Shown here: in pieces, positions 3,208 through 35,360 of the stretch
How positions within the stretch are numbered: the first letter of the stretch is position 1
How the letters are laid out: each line of letters starts with the position of its first letter
Assembly (NCBI GenBank): GCA_001874005.1
Contig: MNYJ01000154.1
Location: 1-35,360 of the forward strand
Source: Desulfobacteraceae bacterium CG2_30_51_40
GTDB lineage: Bacteria > Desulfobacterota > DSM-4660 > Desulfatiglandales > Desulfatiglandaceae
DNA: 35,360 nt
Reading direction: 5' to 3'
Notes under the pieces: generated by a model
The model's database searches: none
What the model was told of the DNA's origin: nothing
Seen by the model: only the letters and a program-made list of their open reading frames with translations
Position numbers and translations under genes: made by a program

Positions 3208-3221
3208 CGAGAGTGTAACTA

Positions 3222-3363
3222 GTGCCCATCCGTAAATGGCTATTTTCACCGATTTCGGCGTTGGGCTCAAATTTTAATCCTCGAAATACGTCAATGTATT
3301 CCTGTGGTTAAAATTATCGCCCGCCTTGAACTCGACGAAACTATCTCATTTCCGGATGGACAC
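3222..3363. mobile_element. MITE-like 142-bp palindromic element, copy 1
   Basis: The element begins GTGCCCATCC and ends GGATGGACAC. The outer 17 bases are inverted repeats with two mismatches, and TA flanks both sides (3220-3221 and 3364-3365). The inner arms are also complementary: AATTTTAA (3270-3277) pairs with TTAAAATT (3308-3315), and AATAC (3285-3289) with GTATT (3296-3300), all centred on 3292.5. The whole unit can therefore fold into one long imperfect hairpin. It carries no plausible gene. It differs from the copy at 35188 by one base. The rest of the gene-free stretch 3155-3481 holds the cooS terminator and, from 3366 to 3481, nothing I recognise. Confidence 0.85.
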
Positions 3364-3481
3364 TAACTACACAGGTTCAAAGTTCAGGAGTTCACGCTTC
3401 AGGGCTGGAGGGCGATGAAGAATGAACTACTGAGTGAAGAGACAAATACAAGATGCTGCTGCGACCGGAAACGAACGCCAC

Positions 3482-19387: not shown

Positions 19388-19420
19388 GTGAACCCCTCTG
19401 CATAAGTATGGCATTATTTA

Positions 19421-19562
19421 GTGTCCATCCGGAAATGGCTATTTTCACCGATTTAGGTGTTGGGCTCAAATTTTAATCCTCGAAATACGTCAATGTATTC
19501 CTTTGGTTAAAATTATCGCCCGCCTTGAACTCGACGAAACTATCTCATTTCCGGATGGACAC
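19421..19562. mobile_element. MITE-like 142-bp palindromic element, copy 2, with an extra terminus
   Basis: This is the same element as at 3222 and 35188, in the same orientation and of equal length, flanked by TA at 19419-19420 and 19563-19564. It differs from the 35188 copy at four positions. Its left terminus GTGTCCATCCGGAAATG is here a perfect 17-bp inverted repeat of the right terminus. Directly after it, 19565-19586 reads like a second, diverged right end (CATTTCCGAACGGACAC followed by TA), so the element may have landed in or beside an older relative. It lies between the promoter-less start of the binding-protein/kinase operon and the LOG gene. Confidence 0.85.
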
Positions 19563-19564
19563 TA

Positions 19565-19968
19565 TCTCATTTCCGAACGGACACTATCTATTTACCGTGA
19601 AAATACACCCCCCACCCCGACCCTCCCCCGCGCAGGGGGAAGGAAAATCCTTGGCCTCGTAAAGTGTAGAGCCGGGGGAGGATTTTCATTTGCGGGGGCG
19701 ACAAAATTCTTTTGTCATGAGCGTTTATACAATTTAAGACATTACCCAGCCTTAGGCTTTTTTTATTAAAGATTATGCCCAGATAGAAAAGCTGTCAAGC
19801 GATTAAATATCTCCTGAAAAGAGATTCCCCAAACTTCTTTAAGGTATAAATTATCTTTGCCATTGTCTGAAAGGCAATGTTAAAAGGAGGATATTTTTCT
19901 GCGAGGATGGGACTTTCCTCCACAAGAGACAGACAAAAACTCTTTATGAGATTCCCGGAGGAGCAATA
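19565..19968. other. Gene-free stretch with repeat remnants upstream of the LOG-family gene
   Basis: About 400 bp hold no credible gene. The first 22 bases are a diverged MITE end. From 19596 to 19692 a GC-rich region resembles the REP-like repeat (see separate entry). From 19740 the sequence becomes A+T-rich. CATTG (19861-19865) and CAATG (19875-19879) form a small hairpin just before AAAAGGAGG. A ribosome site GGAGGAG (19957-19963) precedes the ATG at 19969. I see no promoter here that I would defend. Confidence 0.5.
19596..19692. repeat. GC-rich palindromic repeat, divergent member
   Basis: TGAAAATACACCCCCC (from 19598) and GGGGGAGGATTTTCA (to 19688) form inverted ends around a run of CCCTCCCCC and its partner. 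The pattern matches the repeats at 6628 and 30048, but the middle is longer and different, so it is either a diverged member or an independent REP sequence. Confidence 0.45.
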
Positions 19969-34441: not shown

Positions 34442-35188
34442 ATGAAGTCACTGAACAAGGCACTAGACATAATTGAGATGATAGCCCAGAGGGGCAGCCT
34501 GGGGATAAGGGAGCTTTCCTCTTTTGTAGGTTTCCCCGTGGGCACCACGCACAGGATAGTGGCGACTCTGGCAAAGAGGCGCTTTCTTGTGCAAGATCCC
34601 GCTTCTAGAAATTATTCGCTCTCTCTTCGTTTCCTTGAACTGGGCACAAGGGTGCAGCAGCAGTTTAACCTCACCTCGATTGCCAGACCTTATCTTGAAA
34701 AGCTGATGCAGGAAACCGGCGAGAGCGCAAACCTTGCGGTACTTGACCGGGACGATGCCGTGTATCTGGATCATGTAAGGAGCAATCACATGCTCCAGCT
34801 CTTTACCCGCCTTGGGGCAAGGGTTCCCCTCTACGCGACAGGCGTGGGAAAGATGTTTCTGAGCAGGCTGAGCGAGCAGGAACTGAAGGATTACCTTGCC
34901 CGCACAGCCATGGCCGCCAGAACACCCCGCACAATAGTAAATGCCGACAATCTCGCAAAGGAGCTGGCTCAAATAAGAAAGGCAGGCTTTGCCGTGGACA
35001 ATGAAGAAATGGAGGAGGGGGTTCGTTGCGTTGCGGCGATGGTCTTCGATCACATGAAAAGACCGGTAGCTGCGCTTTCCCTTTCAGGGGCCGTAACCCG
35101 CATCACACCTGAACGAATTGAATATTTTGGAGAGATGGTAAAACAATACGCGATAAGGATATCAGAGTCGCTGGGATTTAATAGTTAG
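34442..35188 (+). CDS. IclR-family transcriptional regulator
   Basis: The protein has 248 residues from the ATG at 34442; a TTG at 34427 is also in frame but would fall at the edge of the expected transcript. The N-terminal winged helix-turn-helix is SLNKALDIIEMIAQRG, then IRELSSFVGFPVGTTHRIVA (about residues 3-50). The effector domain spans about 75-245, with SANLAVLDRDDAVYLDHV and the family hallmark VPLYATGVGKMFLS, then GVRCVAAMVFD. IclR proteins often control catabolism of organic acids, so a target outside the window to the right is possible; no regulated operon is visible next to it. The stop codon TAG is formed by the TA flank and the first base of a MITE copy, and an uninterrupted site would give the same stop. 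Confidence 0.92.
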   Translation: MKSLNKALDIIEMIAQRGSLGIRELSSFVGFPVGTTHRIVATLAKRRFLVQDPASRNYSLSLRFLELGTRVQQQFNLTSIARPYLEKLMQETGESANLAVLDRDDAVYLDHVRSNHMLQLFTRLGARVPLYATGVGKMFLSRLSEQELKDYLARTAMAARTPRTIVNADNLAKELAQIRKAGFAVDNEEMEEGVRCVAAMVFDHMKRPVAALSLSGAVTRITPERIEYFGEMVKQYAIRISESLGFNS

Positions 35189-35329
35189 TGCCCATCCGGA
35201 AATGGCTATTTTCACCGATTTCGGCGTTGGGCTCAAATTTTAATCCTCGAAATACGTCAATGTATTCCTGTGGTTAAAATTATCGCCCGCCTTGAACTCG
35301 ACGAAACTATCTCATTTCCGGATGGACAC
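35188..35329. mobile_element. MITE-like 142-bp palindromic element, copy 3
   Basis: Of the same length and orientation as the copies at 3222 and 19421, it differs from the first by one base. TA flanks it at 35186-35187 and 35330-35331. Its first base G completes the TAG stop codon of the IclR gene. Joining the flanks without the element gives AGTTAGTTGG, which keeps TAG in frame, so the insertion was neutral for the protein. Confidence 0.85.
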
Positions 35330-35334
35330 TAGTT

Positions 35335-35360
35335 GGTTACTAACCCCCATGCCCGAATGG
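35335..35360. repeat. Possible start of a further REP-like repeat, cut by the window edge
   Basis: ACTAACCCCCATGCCCG near 35339 closely resembles ACTAACCCTCATGCCCG at 6629, the left flank of repeat copy A. The window ends before the diagnostic hairpin, so this is only suggestive. Confidence 0.4.

Follow-up and report, generated by a model that had tools for sequence, protein, structure and literature searches.

Three copies of a 142-bp palindromic repeat lie within the 35,360-nt stretch of Desulfobacteraceae bacterium CG2_30_51_40 analyzed here (the window), and they raise the question of what mobilizes such an element and whether its body does anything beyond separating its ends. A first-pass annotation had described a MITE family of full-length palindromes with TA on both sides, all intergenic and in one orientation, and had suggested that an IS630/Tc1-mariner-type transposase supplied from elsewhere moves them.

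Copies in the window and their target duplications

We found three full 142-bp copies, at 3222, 19421, and 35188, with nested inner arms that share the element's midpoint (core at offsets 50-93 of 142), as the annotation had reported. The features of the window are as follows.

3222..3363, minus strand: MITE copy 1, 142 bp, class A ends; the better-folding strand (the F strand) is the minus strand
3216..3221, no strand: left 6-bp target duplication of copy 1, TAACTA
3364..3369, no strand: right 6-bp target duplication of copy 1, TAACTA
3222..3238, plus strand: left terminal inverted repeat of copy 1, GTGCCCATCCGTAAATG
3347..3363, minus strand: right terminal inverted repeat of copy 1, GTGTCCATCCGGAAATG
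3271..3314, minus strand: central hairpin core of copy 1
19421..19562, minus strand: MITE copy 2
19415..19420, no strand: left target copy of copy 2, TATTTA; the right side, TATCTC, is joined to the remnant of another copy
19470..19513, minus strand: central hairpin core of copy 2
19568..19584, minus strand: solitary right terminus of an older copy, directly adjoining copy 2
35188..35329, minus strand: MITE copy 3, located on the stop codon of a gene for an IclR-type regulator
35182..35187, no strand: left target copy of copy 3, TAGTTA
35330..35335, no strand: right target copy of copy 3, TAGTTG
35237..35280, minus strand: central hairpin core of copy 3

Copies 1 and 3 differ by one base at a distance of 32 kb, as had been noted, while copy 2 differs from both by 4-5 bases. 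The annotated 17-bp terminal inverted repeats are present on the copies; at a tolerance of 3 mismatches the window has seven occurrences of the terminus, compared to 0.15 expected from shuffled sequence. The hairpin is real, but the palindrome is imperfect, with 78-82 of 142 mirror positions complementary. All three window copies are intergenic and share one orientation; genome-wide, however, orientation is mixed (57 versus 55). The stop codon TAG of the IclR-type regulator is completed by the first G of copy 3, and the empty site would also give TAG (35182-35190). The solitary terminus abutting copy 2 indicates either two insertions or one recombination at 19568-19584. Another repeat between genes, rich in CCCCACCCC...GGGGCATTTTCAT, is present at 19598-19705 of the window and in the flanks of several other copies.

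The 6-bp flanks (left/right) are TAACTA/TAACTA for copy 1, TATTTA/TATCTC for copy 2, and TAGTTA/TAGTTG for copy 3. The window's genome comprises 3.44 Mb in 229 contigs, and we sampled copies from 1.09 Mb of these contigs, where a loose 18-base seed gave 131 matches, 26 of them unlike the element and 105 of them good copies. All six flank bases are identical on the two sides in 62 sampled copies, and five of six are identical in 24 more. The 62 exact duplications follow the pattern TANNTA, with T in 57, A in 59, T in 60, and A in 56 at its four fixed positions. The TA seen by the annotation does adjoin most ends, but it is the inner edge of this longer duplication. For one copy (G000:C77:25382) we found an empty paralogous site to which the joined flanks align without gaps (89% identity over 127 bp), and a second paralogous place aligns with small gaps; each of the two places holds one copy of the 6-bp target. 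In the sole genome of the same genus, sequence is too diverged for empty sites to be recovered.

The 6-bp duplication and the single-target empty site exclude the IS630/Tc1-mariner family, and we give the reading of these repeats as mariner-type MITEs with a TA duplication next to no probability. The TA beside most ends speaks for it, as does one IS630 transposase fragment in the window's genome, although this sole trace is a 99-aa piece at a contig end, on a contig with no terminus, and an ISNCY element described below has the same ends as the MITE. The annotation had expected empty sites with a single TA and had named any that do not restore it as evidence against itself; the paralogous empty site carries one 6-bp target and so tells against a TA duplication by the annotation's own criterion.

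A genome-wide count of the terminus, which the annotation had proposed, gave 512 matches with up to 3 mismatches compared to 17 for a reversed-pattern control, indicating approximately 250 copies in the window's genome. The recent spread that had been suggested is borne out by the sample, in which 59 of 105 copies have three or fewer changes from the consensus and 10 are identical to it. Contigs often end within or beside a copy, which indicates that the assembly breaks at the element. Copies avoid genes: of 38 copies in a first sample for which both neighbors were available, none was placed within a large ORF. The larger sample had seven seed matches within ORFs, 26 of its 131 seed matches being unlike the element. 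Around position 947 of L133 (G000:C86) a copy has mirror-image flanks, which probably reflect a folding back of the assembly at the palindrome. In two places (L067:7251-7435 and L104:2693) a GC-rich hairpin of approximately 31 bp (e.g., CCTCCGGGGCGTAGGCCTTACGGGCCGGAGG) is inserted in one arm of a copy, perhaps a second small mobile hairpin nested in the MITE.

Transposase partners and exchangeable ends

We searched relatives for DDE_Tnp_1 (PF01609) genes and inspected their flanks for the ends of the MITE. A relative (G016) contains an element of 1,698 bp (L154) with ends GTGTCCATCCAGAAATG and GTGTGCATCCATGAAGG and a TAATTA duplication, and these ends are the class A ends of the window's copies. 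Its protein scores 449.6 bits against the NCBIfam model ISNCY_1 (NF033593 transpos_ISNCY_1; cut-off of 325), a family that we take to be ISDol1-like. More ISNCY genes with TANNTA-type flanks occur in further genomes, their ends being of class A, class A-like, or class C, and one of these genomes (G240) has both an ISNCY element with a class A end and class A MITEs. The L154 element thus shares with the window's copies the 17-bp ends and the TANNTA 6-bp duplication and differs from them in being 1.7 kb long, in encoding a transposase, and in having no MITE body. No NF033593 match was found in the window's genome, while the gene is present in G016 and G240; the gene of the window's genome was either lost or lies within an assembly gap. 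The annotation was right that the transposase comes from elsewhere and mistaken about its type.

The full element that it had sought between the same ends is L154 in the relative; in the parts of the window's genome scanned for end pairs we found no longer element with class A ends. Long candidates between termini in L100, L101, L104, and L105 proved to be ordinary genes with chance or degraded ends. A 508-aa DDE_Tnp_1 protein beside a 239-aa DruA-domain protein (L120/L064, on G000:C142) was considered as a partner and rejected, since the ends do not match and the pair is missing from most hosts of the MITE. In another genome an IS4-family element with its own ends (NF033592; L152:115-1612, G037:C62) has inserted within a class A MITE or next to it.

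The 142-bp length, 17-bp inverted ends, lack of space for a transposase gene, target duplications, empty site, and autonomous partner with the same ends agree in identifying the repeat as a MITE, as had been proposed. At the level of sequence, from which ends, target, and partner are known, we regard the vehicle and target of the window's copies as settled. The class A ends would be cut and joined in trans by a DDE transposase of the ISNCY family, presumably through a staggered 6-bp cut at TANNTA.

We found the same interior in relatives under other ends, with at least five end types in all.

Class B: ends GAGGCTGTCCGAGAATG, CTAG flanks, IS1182-linked
Class C: ends GTGYCTGAACGAAAAC, 6-bp duplications
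Class D: ends GAGACCTTTGAAAAATG, 5-bp duplications
Class E: ends GAGCCAGTTTCAAAAYG
Class F: ends GGGTGTCTTGAAAAATT or GGCAACCTCTAAAAATT, 4-bp duplications

An IS1182 element (L174; 398 bits against NF033551, cut-off of 270) has the class B ends and CTAG flanks, the window's own copies being class A. With both the ISNCY and the IS1182 elements, the MITE has its ends in common and its interior dissimilar. No enzyme for end classes D, E, or F was found among the PF01609 genes. Across families the alignment is 80% identical in the body and 56% in the ends, an inversion of the pattern usual in MITEs. With a covariance model derived from 35 elements we obtained matches in 72 of 297 genomes of the phylum, with an almost constant length and with full length among the matches listed. 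The named records that bear the core are MAGs labeled Desulfobacteraceae, Desulfobacterales, or Deltaproteobacteria; plasmids, phages, and IMG/VR viral contigs gave no match to the query sequences tried. On a tree of the body (105 columns, with one doubtful label, L232), end type changes at least 16 times, compared to 5 if each type arose once and 37.8 when labels are shuffled, and several of these changes are forced by well-supported branches of the body tree alone.

A related MITE beside an ISNCY element in another genome (L191:3049-3224, G048) has a similar outer body and a different central hairpin. Given this MITE, the core of the element may itself be exchangeable.

A predicted fold on one strand of the body

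MITEs are usually seen as decayed insertion sequences with no important part but the ends. In the present element it is the middle that is conserved, as a one-strand structure, and the ends are replaceable. For body-only pairs, 97.5-98.1% of cells are paired, and body covariation is 0.310, compared to 0.135 for shuffled and at most 0.089 for slid alignments. When the divergent elements of one single-contig genome of the phylum (G248) are added, covariation is 0.461 compared to 0.173; the stems of these elements have been replaced wholesale and yet still pair, with changes on both sides in 22 of 34 pairs. Between lineages, and on one strand only, G.U exceeds A.C at paired sites by 116 to 6 and by 61 to 1. 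These ratios are indicative and not probabilities, since the sequences in which they were counted also served to predict the paired columns (a choice that favors G.U over A.C) and are related to one another. That strand gives the more stable fold in 33 of 34 sequences (approximately -59 versus -45 kcal/mol), a comparison that is independent of the choice of columns and is made on sequences related by descent. A double-stranded palindrome would treat its strands alike, which argues that selection acts on one strand in single-stranded form, as RNA or DNA. Taken together, these comparisons of sequence strongly support a selected single-strand fold of the body.

These data bear on a rival account, in which the MITE is nothing more than an ISNCY deletion derivative, with neutral filler for a body and with covariation and phylum-wide spread that follow from inheritance and from a need for matching ends. 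Ends must match for transposition, so end columns are expected to covary, and copies within a genome do drift nearly neutrally. Body pairs taken without the ends nevertheless covary strongly, conservation is stronger in the body than in the ends, and the body is joined to the ends of unrelated transposases while resembling the interior of neither ISNCY nor IS1182; we consider this account improbable. The element is probably a MITE whose class A ends are mobilized by ISNCY and whose body, folding on one strand and found across the phylum, has been re-joined to the ends of various transposases. The body, of approximately 105 nt, would be an independent module selected to fold on one strand, as opposed to an ISNCY remnant, and would have been re-joined repeatedly to the ends of ISNCY, of IS1182, and of at least three further end types. 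If confirmed, this suggests that some short repeats are better seen as structured parasites of several transposases.

We asked whom the fold would serve. Resident copies in the window's genome decay nearly freely: changes at paired sites lead to G.U in 55 cases and to A.C in 41, and double changes number only 4. Orientation relative to neighboring genes is unbiased there (19:17), as it is in G248 (10:11), so orientation gave no sign of an mRNA function. Resident decay and gene-independent orientation fit a structure on which the spreading lineages depend and which the host does not need at each site. One alternative is a regulatory RNA of the host, or another non-mobile functional repeat at fixed positions. 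It would account for the conserved structure, the G.U pairs on one strand, and the intergenic placement; the target duplications, the empty site, near-identical copies at unrelated loci, the unbiased orientation, the decay of resident copies, and the lack of an Rfam match at gathering score make it very improbable. Whether the fold acts in replication, as RNA, or by stabilizing copies, we lean towards the element's own spread: most likely it would help the element, in single-stranded form (as RNA or as ssDNA during replication), to spread or persist, and would not serve the host at the insertion site.

A narrower form of this explanation holds that the fold is selected as RNA, with read-through transcripts of the F strand being processed or bound so that insertions are tolerable. 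Such processing or binding has been reported for Correia and ERIC elements. MITE transcripts with RNase sites are reviewed in PMC10969869. The strong tolerance of G.U on one strand is consistent with such a role, while copies are not co-directed with neighboring genes in either genome; we think this form unlikely, although well short of negligible.

Orientation, replication, and known elements

In G248 we found 122 elements. Before 1.43 Mb, 66 of 74 have the F strand on minus, and beyond that point 42 of 48 have it on plus, so that 108 of 122 are concordant. The switch in element orientation coincides with one in GC skew and in gene strand, and, judged by skew, the F strand is the leading-strand template. 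No replichore bias was found in the window's genome, where neighboring copies have the same orientation in 22 cases and different orientations in 29, or in the relatives sampled (13 of 24). The bias rests on one genome and is a property of that end class or of that host.

Palindromes that fold on the lagging-strand template tend to be lost. The bias in G248, and only that bias, might therefore have arisen passively, through loss of copies whose lagging-strand template carries the strand that folds well and survival of the others. The 108 of 122 elements with the F strand on the leading-strand template agree with passive loss; the lack of bias in the window's genome and in relatives does not, and loss leaves the conservation of a one-sided fold unexplained. 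We rate passive loss as rather unlikely. A further reading, put forward tentatively as short of an even chance, is that the element is a phylum-wide selfish nucleic-acid structure, with an inherited and selected one-strand fold, repeated changes of vehicle, and, in some hosts, a chromosomal orientation set by the fork. If confirmed, the one-strand fold and the replichore bias would form a testable link from DNA replication to the transposition of a non-autonomous element.

IS200/IS605-type elements and integron attC sites depend on the folding of one strand of an imperfect palindrome. The element studied here resembles them in its one-strand fold and, in G248, in its replication-tied orientation; unlike them, it has staggered-cut duplications and DDE-type partners, and its anatomy does not imply their enzymes. 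REP/REPIN sequences with RAYT (20-40-bp units, an IS200-like enzyme, no duplication) were rejected as a match for a 142-bp unit with a 6-bp duplication.

Literature searching, which covered openly readable main texts, returned no description of this element family. The main texts of two papers on Geobacter "multicopy sequences" (PMC2700814, PMC2996986) do not give the sequences, and single-genome members were possibly cataloged earlier. ERIC, Correia/NEMIS, and other long palindromic bacterial MITEs are alike in length range, full-length hairpin, intergenic location, high copy number, and non-autonomy, and ERIC is found across two bacterial families (PMC10969869). Compared to the descriptions of ERIC and Correia, whose flanks are of TA type, the present element is set apart by its 6-bp duplication, identified partner transposase, phylum-wide distribution, several unrelated end types joined to one body, and one-strand covariation. 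The Chunjie MITE belongs to Geobacter uraniireducens, an iron-reducing host formerly placed in the same broad group (Deltaproteobacteria); compared by description only, its full-length copy is 235 bp (PMC10969869) versus 142 bp here.
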